Assembly (NCBI GenBank): GCA_027064085.1
Contig: JAMOQH010000084.1
Coordinates: forward strand, 1 to 44,343
DNA from: a bacterium
Lineage (GTDB): Bacteria; UBP6; JAFGXH01
Direction of reading: 5' to 3'
Length of the DNA: 44,343 nt
Below are positions 8,399 through 21,255 of this stretch, piece after piece. The notes beneath the pieces are model-generated. The model saw only the letters and a list, made by a program, of their open reading frames with translations. It ran no database searches and was not told the DNA's origin. Made by a program: the position numbers and the translations under genes. How positions within the stretch are numbered: position 1 is the first letter of the stretch; each line of letters opens with the position of its first letter.

Positions 8399-10312
8399 AT
8401 GGAATCAAAATATGGTGGTTATGCAGGAAAAATTTTAAAAATTGATTTAACTAATAGAGAAATATCTGATTATCCATTTACTGATAGAGAACGCGAACTA
8501 TATTTAGGCGGAAAAATCATGGCCTCGAAAATTATACTTGATAATTTGAAAGATGATACAGTTCCTCTTTCAAGTGAAAATATAATTGTTGTTTCAACTG
8601 GTCCTTTTACAAATACAGGTGCTCCTTCTTCAAGTCGCTTTAATATATCTTCACTTTCTCCACTCACAGGATTAATAGCATCATCAAATTGTGGTGGGAA
8701 TTTTGGAATTTATTTAAAAAAAGCAGGTTATGATGCATTAATTATTACTGGAAAATCAACTGAGAAAATATGGATAGAAATAAACGAAAATGAAGTTAGT
8801 TTTAATAGTGCTGATGATTTATGGGGACTTGATACTGAAGAAGTTCAAGAGAAACTTCCTGAAAAAACTGGAAAAATTGTTATAGGCCCTGCTGCTGAGA
8901 ATCTTGTTAGATATGCAGGTATTTTTAGTCAAGAAAGAGCTGCTGGAAGAGCTGGTCTTGGTTCTGTAATGGGATTTAAAAATCTTAAAGCAGTTGTAGC
9001 TAAAGGAAACATTAAAACTAATGTTAAAAATAAAGATAAAACAAAAGAACTTTATAAAAAATGGATATATAAATTAAAAGATAGTTATCTTACAGGTGAA
9101 ATGCTTCCTAAATATGGTACAGCTGGAATTTTAAAACTTATGCAAAAGAAAAATGTGCTAGCAACTAGAAATTTTCAAAAAGGAAATTTTGATGATTTTG
9201 AAATGATTTCTGGTGAAAAACTTGAAGAAAAATATTTAATTAAAAATAGAGGTTGTGTTACATGTCCAATTCAATGTGGTAGACAAGTTGAAATAGATGG
9301 TAAAAAAGTAAAAGGACCTGAATTAGAAACTTTAGGACTTTTAGGAGCAAATATTGAAAATAATGATTTAAAGAAAATTATTGATTGGAATTATCAAATT
9401 GATAAACTCGGAATGGATACTATTAGTCTTGCTGGATCAATTGCATTTGCAATGGAACTTAATGAAAAAGGTCTTTGGGATAATGGTCTTGAATTTGGTA
9501 AAACTGATAATTTATCAGAAATATTTAATGACATTGCTAATAGAAAAGGAATTGGTGATGATTTAGCAAATGGAGTAAAATTTCTTTCTGAGAAATATGG
9601 TGGAAAAGAATTTGCAATTCATTCAAAAGGAATGGAATTATCAGCATATGAACCAAGAGGTTCAGTAGGACAAGGACTTGGCTATGCAGTTTCAAATAGA
9701 GGAGGCTGTCATCTTGGTGCAGGATATGTAATATTATTTGAAGCATTATATATGTCAATGGATCCTTATTCAACTGTTTCAAAAGCTGAACTTACAATGT
9801 TAAATCAAGATATTATGGAAGTTTGTTCAGCATCAGGAATATGCCTTTTTACTTTACAAACAATGATTCCAGAAAAAATTATAAAAAATCCTGATGGAAT
9901 GTTTGCTAAAATTACTAATAACTTAATGACTAAAAATGTTACAGCAGCTGTTTTAAGAAAAGTTAATAAATTAAATGAAGATGGATTAAATGTTAATCTT
10001 CCTAATGTTCCTCATATAAAAGCTCTTGAAAGCTTAACTGGAATGAAAATGGATTTTGGTAAATTTAGAGAAATTGGTGAAAGAGGATATACACTTGATA
10101 GAATGATTAATTTAAGAAGAGGATTAAAAGCAACTGACGATACACTTCCTAAAAGATTAACTGATGTACCACAAGATATAACAAATAAAAATTCAAAAGT
10201 TCCAATTAAAGAATTAAGAGATAAATATTATAGTTGTCGTGGTTTAACTAAAGAAGGAGAAGTTACTGAAGAAAAATTAAAAAGTTTAAAAATGCAGGAA
10301 TACTGCAAATAA
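8399..10312 (+). CDS. Tungsten/molybdopterin aldehyde:ferredoxin oxidoreductase
   Basis: It catalyses aldehyde + water to carboxylate with electrons to ferredoxin, or the reverse, using a bis-pterin W (or Mo) cofactor and one [4Fe-4S] cluster. The start is ATG 8399, preceded by ATAGGAG. The 637-residue protein shows the N-terminal pterin-binding fold (SRFNISSLSPLTG), the second pterin region (AGIFSQERAAGRAGLGSVMG) and the cluster ligands Cys286-x2-Cys289-x3-Cys293 (CVTCPIQCG), with a fourth likely at Cys482 (ASGIC). The usual DxxGLC pterin motif reads SASGIC, so the Asp is not conserved. It is the second gene of an operon with an alcohol dehydrogenase. No cofactor-synthesis gene is adjacent. 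Confidence 0.93.
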   Translation: MESKYGGYAGKILKIDLTNREISDYPFTDRERELYLGGKIMASKIILDNLKDDTVPLSSENIIVVSTGPFTNTGAPSSSRFNISSLSPLTGLIASSNCGGNFGIYLKKAGYDALIITGKSTEKIWIEINENEVSFNSADDLWGLDTEEVQEKLPEKTGKIVIGPAAENLVRYAGIFSQERAAGRAGLGSVMGFKNLKAVVAKGNIKTNVKNKDKTKELYKKWIYKLKDSYLTGEMLPKYGTAGILKLMQKKNVLATRNFQKGNFDDFEMISGEKLEEKYLIKNRGCVTCPIQCGRQVEIDGKKVKGPELETLGLLGANIENNDLKKIIDWNYQIDKLGMDTISLAGSIAFAMELNEKGLWDNGLEFGKTDNLSEIFNDIANRKGIGDDLANGVKFLSEKYGGKEFAIHSKGMELSAYEPRGSVGQGLGYAVSNRGGCHLGAGYVILFEALYMSMDPYSTVSKAELTMLNQDIMEVCSASGICLFTLQTMIPEKIIKNPDGMFAKITNNLMTKNVTAAVLRKVNKLNEDGLNVNLPNVPHIKALESLTGMKMDFGKFREIGERGYTLDRMINLRRGLKATDDTLPKRLTDVPQDITNKNSKVPIKELRDKYYSCRGLTKEGEVTEEKLKSLKMQEYCK

Positions 10313-10327
10313 GGGATAAAAAATAAG

Positions 10328-10367
10328 AAAAGAGCTTATGACAATTTTTCAGTCTATAAGCTCTTTT
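10328..10367 (+). terminator. Terminator of the alcohol dehydrogenase-AOR operon
   Basis: AAAAGAGCTTAT and ATAAGCTCTTTT form a perfect 12-bp stem with a 16-base loop, starting 16 bases after the AOR stop codon. Confidence 0.9.
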
Positions 10368-10398
10368 CATATAAAAAATTGAATGAATTAATTATAAT

Positions 10399-10818
10399 GA
10401 AAAAAGGTATTATTTTAACAAAAGATGCTGTGGAAATTAGAATTCTAAGATAATTTTTGTCAAATTTTGTTAAAGAGGGGAAATTAGTTAGGATAGCACA
10501 TGGTGTATATTCATCGCAAGATGCATTTAATGATGAAATATATATTATTCAAGCAAGAAGTAGTAGAGTTGTTTTTTCTCATGAAACAGCATTATTTCTA
10601 CATGGTTTAACAGATAGAGATCCTACTGAGTGGGTTGTTACACTCCCTTCTGGTTATAATGCAACAAGTCTTAAAAAAACGGTATATATAAAAGTATATT
10701 TTATTAAAAAAGAGCTTTATGAATTAGGAATTGAAGAATCAAAAACTGTTTATGAAAGACGAATTATTATTTATAACAAAGAAAGAACAATTAGCGATAT
10801 AGTTAGAAGTAGAAATAA
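10399..10818 (+). pseudogene. Relic of an AbiEi-type antitoxin (type IV toxin-antitoxin)
   Basis: From ATG 10399 the frame reads MKKGIILTKDAVEIRILR, then TAA at codon 19, then continues without shift through FLSNFVKEGKLVRIAHGVYS and ARSSRVVFSHETALFLHGLT to RTISDIVRSRNN. This is the winged-helix N-terminus and central region of AbiEi antitoxins, which repress their own operon and neutralise the AbiEii nucleotidyltransferase toxin. The in-frame stop and the loss of the C-terminal third make it inactive. A start after the stop codon would lack the recognition helix. The sequence runs straight into an AbiEii fragment, so a deletion removed the 3' end of this gene and the 5' end of the next one. 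Confidence 0.8.
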
Positions 10819-10820
10819 TT

Positions 10821-11012
10821 TCTATGTCTAAATATAAGAATATTTTTATATTAAAAGGTGGAATGTTAGTTGCAGCATTAGTTGGTAATGATATTAGATC
10901 AACAGTAGATATGGATACTACTATTAAAAAATATCCAGTTACTTTAGATTCAATTAAAAATGTATTTGATTTGATTTTATCAATAGACTTAGATGACGGA
11001 ATTACTATGACC
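10821..11012 (+). pseudogene. Relic of an AbiEii nucleotidyltransferase toxin
   Basis: In a different frame from the AbiEi relic, the sequence encodes SKYKNIFILKGGMLVAALVG, then NDIRSTVDMDTTIKKYPVTL and SIDLDDGITM. This is the nucleotide-binding core of AbiEii-type toxins (LKGG and RSTxDxD motifs are seen). The first 30-40 residues and everything after ITM (normally about two thirds of the protein) are missing. The following bases belong to an unrelated gene fragment in the opposite orientation. The toxin cannot be active. Confidence 0.8.
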
Positions 11013-11017
11013 ATAAA

Positions 11018-11430
11018 ACTTCCACCGTTACGTGCTTCAAGTACAGAACGATTTAATGCCCGTTTATATTTATTAATGTTTTCTGGTGTAGATTCATCAG
11101 TTTTATATTCTTGATTATTATAAGTTCCATTATCAAATATTGATAATGGTGGAATTCTAACCATAATAATTGTTGATATTATTCCTACAATTGCTAAAAT
11201 AGCGTAAAATAATAAGAATTTATCTCCAACATTTAATGTATTAGCAATTACTTAACAGAATGGAAGTGAAACTACTTTCTTCGATAAACTTAGGTTTTGA
11301 TGTTTTATAAATAATAGCAGTGATACCTGAAATAATAATTACTCCATAAACAACTTGAAAGCCAAAAGGCTTACAAATACCTTTTACAAAATCAATAACG
11401 TAACCAAGTGGTATGTTTATTGCACCATTT
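11018..11430 (-). pseudogene. Fragment of a membrane protein, possibly YjiH/nucleoside-recognition type
   Basis: Read on the minus strand, one frame encodes INIPLGYVIDFVKGICKPFG and FQVVYGVIIISGITAIIYK, stops at TAA near 11250, and a shifted frame resumes with NTLNVGDKFLLFYAILAIVG, IISTIIMVRIPPLSIFDNGT and so on to EARNGGSFM. Hydrophobic helices alternate with short loops. I recall this layout from the N-terminal half of YjiH-like membrane proteins with a nucleoside-recognition domain, but the assignment is from memory and uncertain. Both ends are missing and the frame is broken, so it is a relic. It abuts the AbiEii relic head to head near 11015. Confidence 0.45.
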
Positions 11431-11439
11431 TTAAATATT

Positions 11440-11511
11440 GGAAAAAAAATAAAAAAAAAATAAAAAAAAATAAGTGACAGACCTTGACAAAAATATTTAG
11501 TGGTGTATAAT
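11440..11511 (+). promoter_or_regulatory. Near-consensus promoter with A-tract UP element
   Basis: TTGACA (11484-11489), 16 bp, TATAAT (11506-11511) is the strongest-looking sigma-A-type promoter in the window. Runs of A at 11449-11471 upstream resemble an UP element. It drives the RAYT-like gene and probably the trxB operon behind it. Confidence 0.8.
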
Positions 11512-11554
11512 AAGGTTATCCTAAAAGGGACACACCTTGAAAAAGGAGGAAAAT

Positions 11555-12340
11555 ATGCCGAGAGAAGCTAGGATAAAATCAGTTTTTTCAACATATTACA
11601 TTTATCAAGAAGGAAATGGTAACAATCTTTTTAAGGATGATGATGAAAAAAATATTTTTTTAGAAGTTTTAAAAAAAATGAAAAAAAAATATAATTTCAA
11701 AATATATGCGTTTTGCCTTCAAGATTATTTTTATAAATTAATAATATTTGATAATGGAAATGACATTACTAAAATTATGAAAAGTATTAATGTTAGTTAT
11801 ACAATGAAAGTTAATAAATTTAGAAATCAAAAAGGTAGGATCTTTGAAAAAAGATTTGTTAGTAAAATAATTGATAAAGCAGATATGCTTATGGAATTCA
11901 GCAAAAACATTCATCTAGATTCAAAAGGTTTAAAAGATTGTTTTAGTAGCTATTGTGCTTATTTTGAAGAAAAGCTTAATGCTGAGCTAATTGATACAGA
12001 GATTATTTTAAAAGGCGTAATTGCAGATAATAAAGCAAAAAGATATCAAATGTTTATTAATGATGAAGATGATATATATGATATTGTTTATGAATATGAT
12101 TTTTGTGAATGTGTAGATAAAAGTAATTGTTTAAAAAGTGTTAAACAAAGTAATGAAAAACTAAATGAGATTCTAAAAAACAAAAATATAAGTTTTGAAG
12201 AAATGTTAAAAAATAAGAAAGTAAGAAATGAATTAATAAAAATATGTAGAAAAAATTCAACGCTTTCTTTAAAAGAAATTGGTAAAATGTTTGGAAATAT
12301 TAGTGAATCAGGAGTTTGTAAGATTCTAAGTAGGGAGTGA
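11555..12340 (+). CDS. RAYT/Y1-transposase-like protein without the HUH motif
   Basis: The first 130 residues align by eye with REP-associated tyrosine transposases of the IS200/IS605 superfamily: a start like MPREARIKSVFSTYYI, a core KIYAFCLQDYFYKLII, and a tail SYTMKVNKFRNQKGRIFEKRF. In active enzymes the core reads DNHxHLL; here both metal-binding histidines are replaced (Phe59, Lys61). A tyrosine (Tyr82) remains in the nuclease helix, but its partner sites are changed. The C-terminus carries a helix-turn-helix-like segment (TLSLKEIGKMFGNISESGVC). The start is ATG 11555 after AAAGGAGG. It lies 4 bp from trxB, behind a near-perfect promoter, so it is expressed with the redox genes. I infer a domesticated nucleic-acid-binding protein, perhaps a regulator; the function is unknown. 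Confidence 0.75.
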   Translation: MPREARIKSVFSTYYIYQEGNGNNLFKDDDEKNIFLEVLKKMKKKYNFKIYAFCLQDYFYKLIIFDNGNDITKIMKSINVSYTMKVNKFRNQKGRIFEKRFVSKIIDKADMLMEFSKNIHLDSKGLKDCFSSYCAYFEEKLNAELIDTEIILKGVIADNKAKRYQMFINDEDDIYDIVYEYDFCECVDKSNCLKSVKQSNEKLNEILKNKNISFEEMLKNKKVRNELIKICRKNSTLSLKEIGKMFGNISESGVCKILSRE

Positions 12341-12344
12341 GAAA

Positions 12345-13307
12345 ATGGGTTTAAATTTTGACTTAGGTTTTGGAAGTAGTAAGAAATTTGATTATGAAAA
12401 AATATATGATTTAATAGTAATTGGTGGAGGACCAGGAGGTTTATCATCAGCTCTTTATGCAAAGCGTAAAGGTATAGATGTTGCAATAATTTCTGGAAGT
12501 ATAGGCGGGCAAGTATCTGATACTAGTTCTGTTGAGAATTATTTAGGAATTGAATCTTTATCAGGTGAAGGTCTTGTTAAACAATTTAAAAGTCATGTTG
12601 AAGCATATGATGTTCCAATGTTAGACCAAAAGAAAGTATTAGAGATTTCTAATGACAAAGTAAAAGAAATTAAATTAGATAGTGGTGAAATAGTAAAAGC
12701 AAAAACTGTTATTGTTGCTACTGGAAGTTTAAATAGAAAAATTGGTGTACCAGGTGAGGATGAATTTTATGGTAAGGGTGTAACTTACTGTGCGATATGT
12801 GATGGACCGTTATTTGAAGGTCTTGATGTAATTGTATCTGGTGGAGGAAATTCAGCTGTTGAAGCTGCTATTGATTTATCAAAGATTGCTAATTCAGTTA
12901 AATTAGTTCAAAGAAGTGTTTTAAGAGCTGATAAAGTTCTAATAGATAAACTTGAATCAATTGAAAATGTTGAAATATTTATTGGTCACCAAATTAAAGA
13001 AGTTAAAGGCGATAAATTAGTTTCAAGTGTAATTGCACTTAATAAAGAAACAAATGAAGAAGTTGAATTTAAAACAAATGCATTATTTGTTGAAATAGGA
13101 TACGTTCCAAATTCAAAATTTGTTGAAAATATTTTAGAGTTAAATAATAAAAAGGAAATTGTTATTAATGAAAAAAATGAAACATCAGTAGAGGGTATTT
13201 ATGCTGTAGGTGACGTAACAAGCGTTCCTTATAAGCAAATTATTATAGCAGCATCTGAAGGCGCAAAAGCAGCTCTTTCAGCAGTAGATTATTTGAATAA
13301 AAATTAG
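12345..13307 (+). CDS. trxB: Thioredoxin-disulfide reductase family flavoenzyme
   Basis: An FAD/NAD(P)H enzyme that reduces a thioredoxin-like partner in the cytoplasm. The FAD site GGGPGG (residues 27-32), the redox-active CAIC (Cys149, Cys152), the NAD(P)H site GGGNSAVE (about 166-173) and the C-terminal FAD motif YAVGDVTSVPYKQIIIAASE are all present. Length (320 residues) is normal for TrxR; an extra N-terminal 20 residues (MGLNFDLGFGSSKKFDYEK) precede the fold. The ribosome binding site GGGAGTGAG overlaps the end of the preceding gene. The next gene, 12 bp downstream, encodes a protein with two thioredoxin folds, so the pair resembles a split AhpF, where the N-terminal double-thioredoxin domain relays electrons from a TrxR core. 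The terminal acceptor (peroxiredoxin or other) is not in the window. Confidence 0.93.
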   Translation: MGLNFDLGFGSSKKFDYEKIYDLIVIGGGPGGLSSALYAKRKGIDVAIISGSIGGQVSDTSSVENYLGIESLSGEGLVKQFKSHVEAYDVPMLDQKKVLEISNDKVKEIKLDSGEIVKAKTVIVATGSLNRKIGVPGEDEFYGKGVTYCAICDGPLFEGLDVIVSGGGNSAVEAAIDLSKIANSVKLVQRSVLRADKVLIDKLESIENVEIFIGHQIKEVKGDKLVSSVIALNKETNEEVEFKTNALFVEIGYVPNSKFVENILELNNKKEIVINEKNETSVEGIYAVGDVTSVPYKQIIIAASEGAKAALSAVDYLNKN

Positions 13308-13319
13308 GAGGAATAAAAA

Positions 13320-13964
13320 ATGAGTTTATTAAATGAAGAGGTAAAAGGTCAATTAAAAGAAGTATTCGGAAATATGAAAAATGAGGTAACAATTGCGTTA
13401 TTTGTAAGTGAAAACAACTGTGAAACTTGTGAAGATACAAAGTCTTATATGACTGATGTTGAAACATTATCAGAAAACATTAAATTAGAAGTTTATGATA
13501 TTAACAATGATAGTGAAAAAGCTGAAGAATTAAATGTTGATAAAGTACCAGCTATTGTATTATTAGATTCAAACAAAAAAGATAATGGAGTTAAATTCTA
13601 TGGTATTCCAGCAGGACATGAAATTAATTCATTTGTTACTGGTATATTAGAAGTATCTGATGCTGGAGAAGAATTACCAGAAGCTATGGTAAATGAAATT
13701 AAAGCAATAGACAAAAAAGTAAATATTAAAGTATTTGTTACATTAGCTTGTCCACATTGTGCTGGAGCAGTTTCTAAAGCTCATAAATTAGCTTTAATGA
13801 ATGAAAACATTACTGGTGAAATGATTGAAGCTCAAACTTTCAATGATTTATCAAATAAATACAATGTAAGTGGAGTTCCAAAAATCGTTATTAACGAAAA
13901 ATACGAATTAGTTGGAAACCAACCAATTGAAAAGTTCTTAGAAGAAATTGCTAAAATTGGATAG
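13320..13964 (+). CDS. Double-thioredoxin-fold redox protein (PDO/AhpF N-domain type)
   Basis: Two thioredoxin-like folds in tandem, each with a CxxC: Cys34-ETC-Cys37 in the N-terminal half and Cys144-PHC-Cys147 in the C-terminal half, followed by the cis-Pro motif SGVPKIVIN. This is the layout of protein disulfide oxidoreductases and of the N-terminal domain of AhpF, in which only the second site is usually catalytic; here both CxxC pairs are kept. The protein should take electrons from the thioredoxin reductase encoded 12 bp upstream and pass them to disulfides or a peroxiredoxin. At 214 residues it is full length. A terminator follows. Confidence 0.9.
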   Translation: MSLLNEEVKGQLKEVFGNMKNEVTIALFVSENNCETCEDTKSYMTDVETLSENIKLEVYDINNDSEKAEELNVDKVPAIVLLDSNKKDNGVKFYGIPAGHEINSFVTGILEVSDAGEELPEAMVNEIKAIDKKVNIKVFVTLACPHCAGAVSKAHKLALMNENITGEMIEAQTFNDLSNKYNVSGVPKIVINEKYELVGNQPIEKFLEEIAKIG

Positions 13965-14015
13965 TAATAACTAAAAGAAAAAAATAAGAAATAGAAAAAA
14001 TAAGAAATAAAACAG

Positions 14016-14049
14016 AAAAGATAATTTCAGAAATGAAGTTATCTTTTTT
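14016..14049 (+). terminator. Terminator of the trxB operon
   Basis: AAAAGATAA, 14-base loop, TTATCTTTTTT. The same GATAATT/AATTATC design recurs at 36902 and 44175, and the flanking TAGTAATAACTAAAA stretch recurs at about 25485. Confidence 0.8.
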
Positions 14050-14185
14050 GTGCAATAAAAATGATTAATTTTATTTCTTCCCTTAAATGTAGTTTTGCTT
14101 AAATGATTTTATGAAAGATGTTTTGCATATGAAAAATTGGATTGATATTATTTAATCTGTTTTTATTAAATCTTCTGAATGAATA

Positions 14186-14281
14186 GCTGCTAGTGAAATC
14201 GCTTATATTACTATTAAAAATGTAAAAGAAAAGAATTTAAAACCATTCCAATATTCAAAGTATTTGTTTGAGAATTTTTAA
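14186..14281 (+). pseudogene. C-terminal tail of an IS66-type transposase
   Basis: The bases encode AASEIAYITIKNVKEKNLKP then FQYSKYLFENF and a stop. This resembles the very end of IS66-family transposases (SIVETAKANGLKPFEYLKYL-like). Only some 31 codons survive, with no start. The rest of the spacer between 13965 and 14487 holds the terminator, a perfect 14-bp palindrome GGTGAAATTTCACC at 14402-14415 inside a meaningless 19-codon ORF, and no other gene that I can see. Confidence 0.55.
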
Positions 14282-14487
14282 AATATCTACCGCGGAAATT
14301 GATGTTTTATTTATTAGTTTTATTGTAATGCTTGTAATGTTTATGATATGATTATAAACAGATAATAATATAATTTTAGTATAAAAATAATGTATGAAGA
14401 TGGTGAAATTTCACCTGTTTTTACACGGAGATTTGTTAAAAAAGAATAATGGTAGTTGGTATGGATAGCGTTTAAGGAGAATTGAAA

Positions 14488-15984
14488 ATGATTACAGGGA
14501 AGTTAAGAAGTGATGTTGATAAAATTTGGGAGATATTTTGGACTGGTGGGATAACAAATCCATTATCTGTTATTGAACAGTTTACGTATCTTTTATTTAT
14601 TAAAGGACTAGATGATAAGCAGATTTTTTTGGAAAAAAATGCAGAAATTTTAGGTATTGAAATTGAAGAAAGTGTTTTTAATGAAGATCAACAGGAATAT
14701 AGGTGGGAAAACTTTAGGCATTTAGATGCTAATAAAATGTATGATTTAGTATCTAGAAAAGTTTTTCCTTTTATAAAAAAAATAGACGAAGAAAAAAATA
14801 AAACTAAAAATAATAGCTCGAAAAAACAATCTGCTTTTACTAAGTATATGGATGATGCAATATTTATGATTCCTACTCCACAAATGCTCGAAAAAATTAT
14901 TACAAATATTCATAATTTATCATTAAAAAATGATGGTGAGGATGATACTAGTGGTGACCTTTATGAATACTTATTATCAAAAGTAGCAACAGCAGGAACA
15001 AATGGACAATTTAGAACTCCTAGACATATTATTAAAATGATGGTTGAATTAATGAAACCGACACCTACAGATATTATTGTTGATCCAGCTGCAGGTTCAG
15101 CAGGTTTTTTAGTTGCTGCAGGTGATTATCTTAAGGAGAATAATGAAGATTTATTTTCGATTAAAGAATTAAAAGACCATTATAATAATGATATGTTTTA
15201 TGGAAATGATATGGACAGAACAATGCTCCGTATTGGAGCAATGAATATGATGCTTCATGGTGTTGATAGTCCTAATATTGAATATAGAGATTCGTTATCT
15301 GAGAAGAATAATGATTTTGAAAAATACACTTTAGTACTTGCAAACCCTCCTTTTAAAGGATCACTTGACTATGATAGTGTAGCAGCTGATTTGCTTAAAG
15401 TAACTAAAACAAAAAAGACTGAACTTTTATTTTTAGCACTTTTCCTTAGGACTTTAAAAAAAGGTGGAAGGTGTGCTTCAATTGTACCGGATGGTGTATT
15501 ATTTGGAAGCTCTAAAGCTCATAAAGCTATAAGAAAAGAAATTGTAGAAAATCATCATCTACATGCTATTATTTCTATGCCTAGTGGTGTGTTTAAACCG
15601 TATGCAGGAGTATCTACTGCTATTATGGTATTCACTAAAACTGGTGCAGGTGGCACAGATAAAGTGTGGTTTTATGATATGAAGGCAGATGGTTTCTCTC
15701 TTGATGATAAAAGGCAACCAGTAGATGCAAATGATATAGATGATATTATCAATAGATATCATAATTTAGAGAACGAAAAAACAAGAAAGAGAACAGAAAA
15801 ATCTTTTTTAGTTGATAAAGCTGAAATTGTAAAGAATGCTTATGATCTTTCTATTAATAAGTATAAAGAAATAATTTATGAAAAAATTGAGTATGATTCA
15901 CCAGATGTAATTATGAAGAAAATAGATGAAATTGATAATGAGATTGTAACTTTGAAGCAAGAGCTTAAGATGTTACTAAATTAG
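14488..15984 (+). CDS. hsdM: Type I restriction-modification DNA methyltransferase subunit
   Basis: It transfers a methyl group from S-adenosylmethionine to adenine N6 within the site chosen by HsdS, and forms M2S and R2M2S complexes. The start is ATG 14488, with AAGGAG at 14474-14479. Domains are an N-terminal helical HsdM domain (residues 5-130) and the methyltransferase core, with motif I DPAAGSAGF (Asp199) and catalytic motif IV NPPF (Asn286). A C-terminal coiled coil (IMKKIDEIDNEIVTLKQELK) should contact HsdS. At 498 residues it is full length. It opens the operon hsdM-hsdS-HEPN-hsdR. Confidence 0.95.
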   Translation: MITGKLRSDVDKIWEIFWTGGITNPLSVIEQFTYLLFIKGLDDKQIFLEKNAEILGIEIEESVFNEDQQEYRWENFRHLDANKMYDLVSRKVFPFIKKIDEEKNKTKNNSSKKQSAFTKYMDDAIFMIPTPQMLEKIITNIHNLSLKNDGEDDTSGDLYEYLLSKVATAGTNGQFRTPRHIIKMMVELMKPTPTDIIVDPAAGSAGFLVAAGDYLKENNEDLFSIKELKDHYNNDMFYGNDMDRTMLRIGAMNMMLHGVDSPNIEYRDSLSEKNNDFEKYTLVLANPPFKGSLDYDSVAADLLKVTKTKKTELLFLALFLRTLKKGGRCASIVPDGVLFGSSKAHKAIRKEIVENHHLHAIISMPSGVFKPYAGVSTAIMVFTKTGAGGTDKVWFYDMKADGFSLDDKRQPVDANDIDDIINRYHNLENEKTRKRTEKSFLVDKAEIVKNAYDLSINKYKEIIYEKIEYDSPDVIMKKIDEIDNEIVTLKQELKMLLN

Positions 15985-16000
15985 ATTTGTAGGGGAGATT

Positions 16001-17065
16001 ATGGATAAGTTTATAGATATTATGATCGACTGCACAAAACATGGTCGGAAGATAAAAAAGGGAGATTATCTTGAAGAAGGCAAATATCCTGTAATTGATC
16101 AAGGACAAAAGCAATGTGTGGGGTATTCAAATGAAGAAGAAGGTTTATTTAATGATGTTCCGGCTATAATATTTGGTGATCACACTAGAGTTATTAAATA
16201 CATAGATGAGCCATTTTTCTTGGGTGCTGATGGTGTTAAGGTTTTGAGGAGTAAAGATAATAATGTGGATTATAGATATCTATATTATGCTCTAAGGAAT
16301 GTAAAAATTGAAAACACAGGATATAACAGGCATTTTAAGTGGTTGAAGGAATCTAAAATAAGATTTCCAGAACTGAATAAGCAACAAAAAATTGCAACAG
16401 TTCTTGGAAAAGTTGAACGAGTTATTGAACTTAAAGAAAAAGAATTGAAAGAGTTAGATCTCCTCATCAAATCCCGATTTATCGAGTTGTTTGGATATCC
16501 AGTATCTAATACAATGAACTGGGATGTCGCTCCAATGGGTGAAGTTGCTCCAACTCAAAAATACAATGGCTCATTCGATGATTCAGTCTGGTTATTAAAT
16601 TTAGATATGGTCGAAGCTCAATCGGGTAAAGTTTTGGATTACAATATTGTTGAAGTTGATGAAGTTGGTAATTCAACAGGAGCATTTGATACATCCAATG
16701 TCTTATACTCAAAATTAAGGCCATATTTAAACAAAGTTGTTATCCCAGAAAGGAAAGGTTTTGCTACATCAGAATTAGTTCCACTGAAACCTAATCAAAA
16801 ATTATTAAATAGAGAATACTTAGCTTACATGTTAAGATCAGATGAGTTTGTTACTATGATAACTGAGAAAGTAGCAGGAGCTAAGATGCCAAGAGTATCA
16901 ATGAATGATTTTAGAGGATTTTCTGTACCTTTACCACCAGCTAATCTACAAAATCAATTTTCTAGAATCGTTAATCATGTTGACAAATTGAAAGTTGAAG
17001 TACAAAAATCATTAGATGAAACACAGTTGTTATTTGATTCATTGATGCAAGAATATTTTCAGTAA
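16001..17065 (+). CDS. hsdS: Type I restriction-modification specificity subunit
   Basis: It sets the DNA sequence recognised by the type I complex. Two target-recognition domains are each followed by a helical spacer: TRD1 about 1-125 with helix QQKIATVLGKVERVIELKEK, TRD2 about 165-310 with helix NQFSRIVNHVDKLKVEVQKS. The 354 residues are at the short end for a two-TRD subunit. TAGGGGAG precedes ATG 16001 and the gene follows hsdM by 16 bp. The last 84 bases are repeated, degenerate, at 17640-17723 beyond the next gene. This suggests past recombination at the 3' end of hsdS, a common way to change specificity. Confidence 0.93.
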   Translation: MDKFIDIMIDCTKHGRKIKKGDYLEEGKYPVIDQGQKQCVGYSNEEEGLFNDVPAIIFGDHTRVIKYIDEPFFLGADGVKVLRSKDNNVDYRYLYYALRNVKIENTGYNRHFKWLKESKIRFPELNKQQKIATVLGKVERVIELKEKELKELDLLIKSRFIELFGYPVSNTMNWDVAPMGEVAPTQKYNGSFDDSVWLLNLDMVEAQSGKVLDYNIVEVDEVGNSTGAFDTSNVLYSKLRPYLNKVVIPERKGFATSELVPLKPNQKLLNREYLAYMLRSDEFVTMITEKVAGAKMPRVSMNDFRGFSVPLPPANLQNQFSRIVNHVDKLKVEVQKSLDETQLLFDSLMQEYFQ

Positions 17066-17113
17066 CATTAATGGAAGTATTAATAGACAAATACTAAGAA
17101 AGCGGGTGATTTA

Positions 17114-17608
17114 ATGCCATTGGTAAAAAAATGGATAAAAGATACTATAGATTTTGATATAGATGAAGGAGACATGAGATTGGGGAGCGATTTTTTGATG
17201 ATTTGGTCGATTTTTGAAGAATCATACAGTGAGACAGGATTCGGTCTACAGCTTATTCGCAATGATAAAACACAAAAGGAATTAACTCTAGTAGAGGATA
17301 GTATACCGAGTTTAAATAATTTGTTTGTTTACTTTTATGATAGATATCAAGATCAGAGTAAGTTAAGAGATTTGAAAGGTAAAGTGAAACATAATTCGAC
17401 ATTTATAGAAGAAATTTTGAAGAAAGATAAATCTCTTATAACTATTGAAGAAAAGGTTACATTACTTTTGTATGTGGTATTTAGGTATCGAAACAACATG
17501 TTTCATGGCAGTAAAGCTTTAAAGGATTGGGCTAGTATATACAAAATACAAATAAATAAGTGCATAGATGCTCTAATGTTGCTATATGGTAATCTAAAAT
17601 TTGTTTAG
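17114..17608 (+). CDS. HEPN-domain protein inside the type I R-M operon
   Basis: A 164-residue, mostly helical protein with Arg126-x4-His131 in YRNNMFHGSK, the R-x4-6-H signature of HEPN RNases. HEPN proteins are frequent in defence and toxin-antitoxin loci, where they cleave RNA or work as regulated partners. AAGCGGGTGA lies upstream of ATG 17114. It sits between hsdS and hsdR and is enclosed by two copies of the hsdS 3' end, which suggests it entered with a duplicated or exchanged hsdS segment. No partner nucleotidyltransferase is encoded next to it. Whether it is an active RNase or an accessory to restriction is unknown. Confidence 0.65.
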   Translation: MPLVKKWIKDTIDFDIDEGDMRLGSDFLMIWSIFEESYSETGFGLQLIRNDKTQKELTLVEDSIPSLNNLFVYFYDRYQDQSKLRDLKGKVKHNSTFIEEILKKDKSLITIEEKVTLLLYVVFRYRNNMFHGSKALKDWASIYKIQINKCIDALMLLYGNLKFV

Positions 17609-17639
17609 AATTAAAAAGCCTTACGGAATATAGATATAC

Positions 17640-17723
17640 ATACAAATTAAAGGTTGAAGTTCAGAAGTCACTGGATTAAACACAGATGTTATTCGATTCA
17701 TTAATGCAAGAGTATTTTGTGTA
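17640..17723 (+). pseudogene. Degenerate second copy of the hsdS 3' end
   Basis: These 84 bases align without gaps to the last 84 bases of hsdS (16982-17065), with about 15 differences. The translation is KLKVEVQKSLD, a stop (GAA changed to TAA), then TQMLFDSLMQEYF. The rest of this second specificity gene is gone. It is a relic of another hsdS or of a duplication spanning the HEPN gene. Confidence 0.9.
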
Positions 17724-17912
17724 ATGAAATGTTTGAGATGCATTAAAAATTTTGCAGAACAAAACATAAATGATTTGAATTCTAATATTCAAGAGATGGT
17801 TGATATGCATGGCTTTGATAGAAATATTGCTCTAACGGTACTTAAAACAACTTGCAGTTCGAAATTTCAAAACCAAAATTTTATAAAAAAAGCTGTATTA
17901 GAGAAACTATAG
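17724..17912 (+). CDS. Small hypothetical protein (62 residues)
   Basis: The ATG directly follows the stop codon of the hsdS relic, and the gene ends 19 bp before hsdR. The product (MKCLRCIKNFAEQNINDLNS...) has an N-terminal CLRC pair and a helical C-terminus. I do not recognise it, and there is no clear ribosome binding site. It could be the tail of a lost gene rather than a functional peptide. Confidence 0.35.
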   Translation: MKCLRCIKNFAEQNINDLNSNIQEMVDMHGFDRNIALTVLKTTCSSKFQNQNFIKKAVLEKL

Positions 17913-17931
17913 ATAATAAGTGGGGGAGTTT

Positions 17932-20900
17932 ATGTGTTATAATTTTGATTTTTTAAAAAAAGAACAGAAGTATAAAGAATTTACATATGCTTGTATTGAA
18001 GCAGAGAAAAGCTTGGTTGTTTCCTATGCTAGTACTACTATTCTTGCTAGAAGAGCTTTAGAATTAGCAATTAAATGGGTGTTTAGTTATGACCAAGATT
18101 TAGTAGCCCCATATCAAGATAATTTGGCAACTTTGATTCATGATCATAATTTTAAGAGTATAATTGATAGCAAATTATTTCCTATGATGATATTTATTCA
18201 AAAATTAGGGAATAAAGCTGTTCATTCTTCTTCGCCTATATCAAGAGAACAAGCAGTTTTATCACTAAATAATCTATTTGAATTTGTATCTTGGATTGAT
18301 TATTGTTATTCAGATGAATATGAAGATATTAAATTTGACGAAAGTATTTTAGGGGATAACGAAAAAGAAAAGAAAACCAGAGAAGAACTAAAAGATCTTT
18401 ATGATCGATTAGGTTCCAAAGATCGTAAACTTGAAGAAGTTATAAAAGAAAATGAATCTTTAAGAAAATTAAATGCAGATAAAAGAAAAAATAATAAGAA
18501 AAACAAAGAGTTTAAAGTTGATGAAATATCAGAATATAAGACTAGGAAGATGTATATTGATTTAGAGCTTGAGCTTAATGGCTGGATAATTGGTAAAGAC
18601 TGTTTAGAAGAAGTTGAAGTAACTGGCATGCCTAATATATCTGGTATTGGTTTTATAGATTATGTTTTATATGGTAATAATGGAAAACCTCTTGCTGTTG
18701 TTGAAGCAAAAAAAACAAGTGTCAATCCTAGAGTTGGACAAGTGCAAGCTCAAAGATATGCAGATTGTTTAGAGAAGCAACATGGAATAAGACCAATAAT
18801 TTTTTATACTAATGGATTTGAATATAATTTATGGGATGATAGAAGTTATCCAGAGCGTATTGTTTCTGGTATTTATACAAAAGAAGAATTAGAGTGGCTT
18901 ATATTTAAGCGTACTAATAAAAGCAATCTTATAGATCCAGTAATTAATGATAATATTACTGATAGATATTATCAAAAGATGGCAATAAATGCAGTATGTG
19001 ATACATTAGATAAAGGTAATAGAAAGTCTTTACTTGTTATGGCAACTGGATCAGGAAAAACTAGAACAGCTATTTCTATTGTGGATGTATTAATTAATAG
19101 AGGCTGGGTTAAGAATATATTATTTTTAGCTGATAGAACTGCATTAGTTAAGCAAGCAAAGAAAAATTTTAAAGCATTATTACCAGAATTATCTCTTTGT
19201 AATTTACTAAATAGCAAAGAAAATCCTGAAAGTAGAATGGTATTTTCTACTTATCCTACAATGATGAATGCAATAGATGATGTAAAAAATAAGAATAATG
19301 AAAAATTATTTACTAGTGGGCATTTTGATTTAATTATTATTGATGAGAGTCATAGAAGTATTTATAAAAAATATCAAGAGATATTTAATTATTTTGATTC
19401 TATTTTATTAGGACTTACAGCTACACCTAAAAATGATATTGATAAGAATACTTATACAATATTTGAACTTGAAAATAATGTACCAACTTATTCATATGAA
19501 CTTGGAGAAGCAATTAAAGATGGTTTTTTAGTACCATATAATACTATGGAAGCAAAACTTAAGTTTATGGAACAAGGTATTCATTATGATGAACTTTCAG
19601 AAGATGAAAAAGATCAATTTGAGGAAACGTTTGATGATGATGTGAAGGATATAAGCGGTGAAGCTTTAAATTCGTTTTTATTTAATGATAATACGGTTGA
19701 TACTGTGGTTCAAAATCTCATGGAAAATGGTTTGAAAGTAGAAGGTGGAGATAAACTTGGTAAAACTATTATTTTTGCGAAGAATAAAAAACATGCAGAT
19801 TTTATTGTTAAGCGATTCAATAGTCTTTACCCAATATACAACGGAGAATTTGCAAAACCTGTATATACTGGAATTAATTATGTAGAAAGTACAATGGATG
19901 ATTTTGAAATAAAAGGGAAAGCACCACAAATTGCAATATCAGTAGATATGCTAGATACAGGAATTGATATTCCTGAGATAGTAAATTTAGTGTTTTTTAA
20001 GAAAATACGATCAAAAACTAAATTTTGGCAAATGATTGGTAGAGGTACTAGGCTATGCCCAGATTTGTATGGTGTAGGTATTGACAAAGAAAATTTTAAG
20101 ATATTTGATTATTGTGGCAATTTTGAATTTTTTAGAGTAAATAAAAATGGTAAAGAAGCCAAGATGATTAAATCTTTGACTGAAAATTTATTTAATATAA
20201 AAATATTAATAATACAAGAATTACAGAAATTAGATTATCAAACAGAGAAATATATTGCTCATAGAGAGGAACTCATTGAGGGTATTATCAAAGAAATATT
20301 GTCAATTGATGAAAGTAAATTCAATGCACGAATGAAACTTAAATATATTCATAAATATAATCAAAGAAATGCTTTTGAAGCCTTAAGTGATTCAGATGTT
20401 AGAGAATTAGAAGAAGAACTAGCTTCTATTGTACCGGCAATTGATGATGATGAGTTAGCAAAACGATTCGATTACTTGATGTATACTATTGAATATGCTG
20501 ATATTAAAGGAAAAATTGCATCAAGACCTAAAAATAAAGTTGTAAGTACAGCAGAAAAATTGAGCTTTAAAGGTAGTATTGAAAAAGTTAAATTACAGGA
20601 AGAACTTATATATAAAGTGCAGACTAATGAACATTGGGACGAAGCAGATATATTTGATCATGAACTTGTACGAGTTGCTTTTAGAGATTTAATTAAATTT
20701 TTAGATAGTAAATCTGGAGAAATTTATTATACTAATTTTATAGATGAAATTATTGAATGTAATGAAAATTCTGGTGAATATTCCGTTAATAATATGCAAA
20801 GCTATAAGAAAAAAGTTAATAGCTATTTTAGAGAACATCAAGATGATATTGTAGTGTATAAATTAAGAAATAATAAGGATATTAGTAAGCAAGATATTAA

Positions 20901-21255
20901 GTACTTTGAAAAATTGTTATGGGAAAAATTAGGGTCTAAAGAAGATTATAAAAAAGAGTATAAAGATGAACCGTTGCTTAAATTAGTTAGTAGCATTGTA
21001 GGAATTGATCCTAAGGCGGCAAATTCTGTGTTTTCAGATTTTTTATCTGATGAAAGTTTGAACATGAATCAAATGGAATTTGTTAAATTGATTGTTAATT
21101 ATATTATTAAAAATGGAAGTTTGGATAAAAGAGTATTAAATGAACATCCATTTAATAAAAAAGGTAATGTTATGAATTTATTTGATGGAAAACTTGATGT
21201 TGTAAAGAATATTATTAAAGCAATTGATAAACTAAATAATAGGTTAAGTGGTTAA
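17932..21255 (+). CDS. hsdR: Type I restriction enzyme motor/nuclease subunit
   Basis: It translocates and cleaves unmethylated DNA as part of the R2M2S complex. The start is ATG 17932, because GGGGGAG at 17922-17928 fits it; GTG 17920 would overlap that site. Order: an N-terminal DUF4145-like helical domain (1-125), a coiled coil, the PD-(D/E)xK nuclease (Asp243 in GFIDYVLY, Glu258-x-Lys260 in VVEAKKT), the superfamily 2 motor (GSGKT 373-377, DESH from Asp471, LTATPK, motif VI QMIGRGTRLCPDL), and a C-terminal EcoEI-type assembly domain. At 1107 residues it is complete. With hsdM and hsdS present the system looks functional. Confidence 0.95.
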   Translation: MCYNFDFLKKEQKYKEFTYACIEAEKSLVVSYASTTILARRALELAIKWVFSYDQDLVAPYQDNLATLIHDHNFKSIIDSKLFPMMIFIQKLGNKAVHSSSPISREQAVLSLNNLFEFVSWIDYCYSDEYEDIKFDESILGDNEKEKKTREELKDLYDRLGSKDRKLEEVIKENESLRKLNADKRKNNKKNKEFKVDEISEYKTRKMYIDLELELNGWIIGKDCLEEVEVTGMPNISGIGFIDYVLYGNNGKPLAVVEAKKTSVNPRVGQVQAQRYADCLEKQHGIRPIIFYTNGFEYNLWDDRSYPERIVSGIYTKEELEWLIFKRTNKSNLIDPVINDNITDRYYQKMAINAVCDTLDKGNRKSLLVMATGSGKTRTAISIVDVLINRGWVKNILFLADRTALVKQAKKNFKALLPELSLCNLLNSKENPESRMVFSTYPTMMNAIDDVKNKNNEKLFTSGHFDLIIIDESHRSIYKKYQEIFNYFDSILLGLTATPKNDIDKNTYTIFELENNVPTYSYELGEAIKDGFLVPYNTMEAKLKFMEQGIHYDELSEDEKDQFEETFDDDVKDISGEALNSFLFNDNTVDTVVQNLMENGLKVEGGDKLGKTIIFAKNKKHADFIVKRFNSLYPIYNGEFAKPVYTGINYVESTMDDFEIKGKAPQIAISVDMLDTGIDIPEIVNLVFFKKIRSKTKFWQMIGRGTRLCPDLYGVGIDKENFKIFDYCGNFEFFRVNKNGKEAKMIKSLTENLFNIKILIIQELQKLDYQTEKYIAHREELIEGIIKEILSIDESKFNARMKLKYIHKYNQRNAFEALSDSDVRELEEELASIVPAIDDDELAKRFDYLMYTIEYADIKGKIASRPKNKVVSTAEKLSFKGSIEKVKLQEELIYKVQTNEHWDEADIFDHELVRVAFRDLIKFLDSKSGEIYYTNFIDEIIECNENSGEYSVNNMQSYKKKVNSYFREHQDDIVVYKLRNNKDISKQDIKYFEKLLWEKLGSKEDYKKEYKDEPLLKLVSSIVGIDPKAANSVFSDFLSDESLNMNQMEFVKLIVNYIIKNGSLDKRVLNEHPFNKKGNVMNLFDGKLDVVKNIIKAIDKLNNRLSG

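Follow-up and report, generated by a model that had tools for sequence, protein, structure and literature searches.

The locus lies in a window of 44,343 nucleotides (the whole stretch of DNA analysed) and consists of three forward-strand genes, the first of which encodes a 261-amino-acid protein resembling the TIRYT/TnpA_REP transposases but without their HUH motif. The features are as follows, operator-like copies being named after the family motif described below.

11474..11487, + strand: operator-like copy 1, GTGACAGACCTTGA, a degenerate form of GGGACGG[T/A]ACTTGA overlapping the −35 box
11484..11511, + strand: sigma-70 promoter, TTGACA-16-TATAAT, 12/12 match
11527..11540, + strand: operator-like copy 2, GGGACACACCTTGA, repeating copy 1 in direct orientation 53 bp further on and immediately preceding the ribosome-binding site
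11543..11549, + strand: ribosome-binding site AAGGAGG, by sequence
11555..12340, + strand: HUH-less TIRYT/TnpA_REP-like protein, 261 aa, intact open reading frame, proposed TIR-derived autoregulator
11729..11737, + strand: former H-x-H metal site, now F59-Y60-K61 (alignment with closest relatives)
11906..11908, + strand: former catalytic Tyr position, now N118 (alignment with closest relatives)
11939-11956, + strand: C129 and C134, 5′ of the linker cluster (alignment)
12104..12130, + strand: linker cysteine cluster C184-x-C186-x5-C192 (alignment)
12224..12322, + strand: C-terminal helix–turn–helix (HTH), Bac_DnaA_C-like, residues 224-256 (profile match, AF2)
12345..13307, + strand: trxB-like flavoprotein gene, matching the AhpF C-terminal part and TrxR, under both curated cutoffs
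13320..13964, + strand: double-thioredoxin protein disulfide oxidoreductase (PDO), TIGR02187, 261 bits, over the cutoff, with CETC and CPHC

The preliminary description of this DNA had credited the gene with the best promoter in the window, a strong ribosome-binding site and a position 4 bp from trxB. The latter two were confirmed, the trxB-like gene beginning 4 bp past the stop codon, and the promoter ranked first within the interval that was ranked, 10000-15000. Upstream, at 10457-11114, lies a remnant resembling an AbiE-type toxin–antitoxin system, with a frame without a Pfam match followed by a truncated AbiEii (PF08843) match, and 3′ of the operon, at 14482-21255, are genes whose translations read like a type I restriction–modification system.

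The protein matched Y1_Tnp (Pfam) with 26.2 bits, over the cutoff, and its AF2 model (mean pLDDT 88) had its elements in the Y1 order, with added helices at the C-terminal end. The best PDB match was E. coli TnpA_REP with a REP hairpin, 4er8 (Foldseek E 1e-5; Z 15.8, rmsd 2.3, 143 residues), and the claimed retention of the Y1/RAYT fold was thus borne out. Alignment with the closest relatives placed Phe59 and Lys61 at the His pair of N-H-x-H-L, as had been described, and N118 at the catalytic Tyr, the NPV motif being gone, so that, of the features of TIRYT/TnpA_REP subclass 2.1, the protein lacks both the HUH motif and the Tyr. It contains one histidine, H120, from which no HxH site could be rebuilt elsewhere, and relocation of the active-site histidines within the fold was ruled out on this ground. 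With both HxH and Tyr lost, HUH-Tyr cleavage should not work, in agreement with the earlier claim that the usual strand-cleavage chemistry is impossible. The HTH-like end that had been noted, which in subclass 2.1 is of Bac_DnaA_C/HTH_23/HTH_28 type, was seen as a weak Bac_DnaA_C match in the window protein (E 0.0056, below the gathering cutoff), as stronger matches elsewhere in the alignment and as C-terminal helices in the AF2 model. In the former nuclease domain, identity between the window protein and its seven closest relatives was 0.40-0.49, compared with 0.53-0.83 among those relatives; in the C-terminal part the values were 0.33-0.51 and 0.36-0.79, the window protein being about as close to most of them as they are to one another. 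The C-terminal identity was thus kept, and that of the Y1 domain dropped. Two other Y1_Tnp proteins of the same genome (L001 and L002, on contigs C32 and C182) have HxH (DHIH and NHVH) and are only distant kin.

Used as the sole query, the window protein found no homologue in a scan of 85,000 genomes; two alignments gave no match in viral contigs, and the 28 genomes of the window's own phylum held no relative closer than ~28%. An alignment minus the HUH region uncovered a family, comprising five HUH-less proteins in clostridial MAGs, each encoded directly 5′ of trxB, and of PDO where the contig was long enough, and 30 further proteins from 394 genomes of a single order, searched with a profile. 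The 36 HUH-less proteins collected, mostly from one clostridial order, reflect a sampling of one genome per species with one order in depth, and more distant HUH-less relatives could be missed because the queries included the window protein and HUH-positive relatives. In a tree of 87 sequences (IQ-TREE), the 36 proteins formed one clade with support 100/99, the placement of the window protein inside it being weakly supported (84/23). HxH was present in 0/36 HUH-less and 50/50 HUH-positive proteins, and Tyr118 likewise in 0/36 and 50/50. Position 60 was Tyr in 35/36 HUH-less proteins and mostly Val, Ile, Ala or Leu in the HUH-positive ones; the second His was retained in 20/36, so that the former active site differs within the clade. 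One candidate member, L225, was rejected, being HUH-less by regular expression only. HxH is also lacking in L257 (G647:C11:36334-37056; CLMDKAYHLV), a RAYT-like protein that does not group with the trxB-linked clade and has no trxB next to it, and that represents an independent loss of the motif.

The preliminary description had proposed looking for clustering of HxH-less homologues next to trxB and double-thioredoxin genes. Directly downstream of 35/36 HUH-less genes came trxB-PDO, with trxB on the same strand, compared with 0/47 of the HUH-positive relatives with enough downstream sequence (Fisher p ~1e-22). In the sole exception, L236, the gene is closely followed by an IS-like element, and no trxB was found within ~10 kb. 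No RAYT neighbour was found within 1.5 kb of trxB relatives from other phyla, and gene content beyond the three-gene unit varied among the HUH-less loci. The dN/dS ratio (NG86, close pairs with unsaturated dS) was 0.04-0.20, indicating purifying selection, and was lowest in the former nuclease domain, at 0.02-0.08 in all pairs except one. Distances of the RAYT-like proteins and of trxB were correlated (r 0.79, Mantel 0/2000), a correlation that shared ancestry alone can yield. The window copy taken alone, with 22% G+C and its catalytic residues gone, would fit a decaying transposon insertion that came to lie in front of trxB by chance. The comparative data refute this and leave it practically no probability, the homologues being neither scattered, frame-broken nor unlinked to trxB but forming a single clade with synteny in 35 genomes, intact frames and the low dN/dS given above. 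Loss of the catalytic residues, purifying selection and conserved host synteny together characterize an exapted transposase, and the domestication proposed in the preliminary description is upheld.

In the HUH-positive relatives, of TIRYT type, GGGGACGGTTCTT flanks the gene on either side in inverted orientation, and the terminal inverted repeats (TIRs) of the TIRYT-type element are given as GGGGACGG. Upstream of 34/36 HUH-less genes we found GGGACGG[T/A]ACTTGA (≤3 mismatches, 15-mer), with the −35 box beginning at its TTGA; for the majority of members a −10 box follows at 15-18 bp past the −35, and the start codon ~20 nt further. Across these 34 genes, 13/14 positions of the motif vary in ≤2 sequences. 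The exact motif occurred in 31/36 genomes, almost always as one copy, compared with 2 hits in total for a reversed control pattern. At 16/35 HUH-less loci an inverted copy was also kept downstream, in the stretch that separates the gene from trxB; it is missing in about half of the members, the window included. In the window, the operator-like sequence has 5 mismatches to the 15-bp family consensus; its two copies are alike at 15/18 positions, 0/300 shuffles being as good, and exact matches to them occur nowhere else in the whole assembly. A search for further targets in the genome of the window gave only a site with 1 mismatch, which falls within an open reading frame. Judged by sequence, the ancestral TIR is thus retained, fused to the −35 box of the operon, at about one copy per genome, and this operator-like sequence further supports the reading of the protein as a nucleic-acid-binding regulator.

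Additional copies of the motif were seen at G696:C1:30213, G696:C39:185935 and G680:C124:69671 (L293, L292 and L294), preceding a BASS-like transporter gene (G696, G680) and a gene for a small 4Fe-4S protein (G696), names read from the sequence. They again form the −35 of promoter-like sequences and have the same T-to-A variant as the respective own operon, and may represent a small regulon. In G562, a second copy lies ~340 bp before that of its own operon.

Since the motif is part of the promoter, another factor could be its reader. Like other nucleic-acid binders of Y1 fold, the protein might instead act on RNA, namely the operon leader or mRNA, the upstream repeat then being no more than a promoter left behind by the transposon. 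Single strands in folded form are bound by TnpA_REP proteins (PMC8266576), and dN/dS is lowest in the Y1 domain, both consistent with action on RNA; however, in most members the motif is 5′ of the predicted transcription start and hence absent from the mRNA, and a promoter needs no selection on the 10 bp outside the −35 hexamer, making this reading distinctly improbable. Somewhat better placed, though still unlikely, is a role as a class II-type activator, with RNA polymerase recruited by the protein bound at the site that overlaps the −35. The position of the motif, which abuts and overlaps the −35, together with weak TTGAAT −35 boxes in several members, would suit such an activator, but many members, the window included, have near-consensus promoters that need none, and copy 2 of the window is 3′ of the −10, a better fit to repression. 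Repression is thus favoured by the placement of sites at the −35 and, for the window, past the −10 as well.

The HUH-less proteins have also gained cysteines. Cys192 is present in 36/36 HUH-less proteins and in 0/50 HUH-positive relatives, and the linker before the HTH holds 3-7 cysteines in the former and 0-2 in the latter (p ~3e-16, the sequences being non-independent), the mean total being 7.2 and 2.3, respectively. Conserved cysteines of this kind are those expected of a redox-sensing transcription factor. Common arrangements in the clade are C-x2-C-[IL] and C-x6-C-x5-C, with C-x5-C also found, and the window protein has CxCx5C; given this difference in spacing between members, one defined cofactor site is no more than a possibility. 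The gain of cysteines beside a thiol-repair operon suggests a sensor based on thiols, zinc or Fe-S. An autoregulator acting through the TIR-derived operator might, however, carry its cysteines for structure, for example in a zinc site stabilizing the linker, and respond to another signal, or it might be a plain negative-feedback repressor. With about four cysteines and CxxC, the linker of each protein looks like a metal site, though of varying spacing, and the evidence for the operator is independent of the cysteines; against this, the cysteines were gained together with the linkage to a thiol-reduction operon, and C192 does not vary. We regard this alternative as possible, and the strongest of those weighed here, but not probable. 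Three findings were absent from the preliminary description, namely the gained cysteines, the missing catalytic Tyr and the operator-like sequence.

Considering these results, we propose a single exaptation, in which a TIRYT-type transposase became the leading gene of a trxB-PDO operon and an autoregulator binding its own TIR, a reading to which we assign a probability of roughly 75%. The loss of HxH and Tyr, a single origin, purifying selection, fixed trxB-PDO linkage, gained linker cysteines and the TIR sequence kept at the −35 box are what the sequences themselves establish, and the proposed autoregulator of the thiol-repair operon would probably be redox-responsive. In the proposed scenario, trxB-PDO would have received a TIRYT element ahead of it, the upstream TIR of which supplied or became the −35 region, and the transposase would have lost catalysis and kept TIR recognition, turning into an autoregulator. 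The protein may recognize the TIR-derived sequence as duplex DNA, the proposed target being the GGGACGGTACTTGACA duplex, via its HTH and/or Y1 domain, and may block RNA polymerase at the −35 (autorepression), possibly bridging two sites. If the cysteine cluster were oxidized or lost its metal, the protein would leave the operator, and the encoded TrxB/PDO pair would then restore the reduced, repressing form. A fuller version, in which the whole transposon (gene and TIRs) was converted in place into a redox-sensing autorepressor and its operators, the protein pairing two TIR-derived sites in the manner of the transposase, now looping the promoter, and having acquired a Cys4 metal or Fe-S site that its own target, the thioredoxin system, would reset, is put forward tentatively, with the odds somewhat against it.

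For eukaryotes it is a classic idea that transposases and their TIRs were exapted, the former as factors and the latter as binding sites, and to our knowledge there are few clear bacterial cases. Both halves are visible here, namely HUH-positive relatives with paired TIRs and a monophyletic inactive clade with the TIR in a host promoter. This suggests that, in many anaerobic bacteria, a regulator arose from a jumping gene and the operator from the ends of that element. The analysis offers a candidate regulator for the thioredoxin/PDO operon in anaerobes, and would mean that an annotation as REP-associated transposase can stand for a regulator. No description of the HUH-less, trxB-linked family was found in the open-access literature. 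The E. coli TnpA_REP (RAYT) is often termed a domesticated transposase. It shares the fold and is the best structural match of the window protein, but unlike the HUH-less clade it keeps catalysis, works on REP hairpins and has no part in operon control, and the 4er8 chain of 165 residues is without the HTH tail present in the window protein. TIRYT proteins have all been reported with HUH and Tyr, and their elements with a GGGGWSAS core (PMC3733652; PMC6006769). The HUH-less clade shares with TIRYT/TnpA_REP subclass 2.1 the Y1 fold, the C-terminal Bac_DnaA_C/HTH extension, ~40% identity and, at least upstream of the gene, GGGGWSAS-type repeats, GGGGACGGTTCTT of the HUH-positive relatives matching the core, but differs in the loss of HUH and Tyr, the gain of cysteines, the fusion of the TIR to a host promoter and the trxB-PDO operon.

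TldR proteins are derived from TnpB, whereas the HUH-less clade stems from a Y1 transposase. They are described as RNA-guided transcription factors (PMC13418256). TldR represents a transposon-encoded nuclease turned bacterial transcription factor, a course that the HUH-less proteins would share, relying on a TIR-derived operator instead of an RNA guide. The proposed regulator may also be compared with thiol or Fe-S redox-sensing regulators such as SoxR, the Rrf2 family and OxyR. The CxCx5C of the window protein resembles the last three cysteines of SoxR, and, with no homology to these regulators, the HUH-less clade may share their logic of a cysteine cluster beside an HTH that governs a redox-repair operon.
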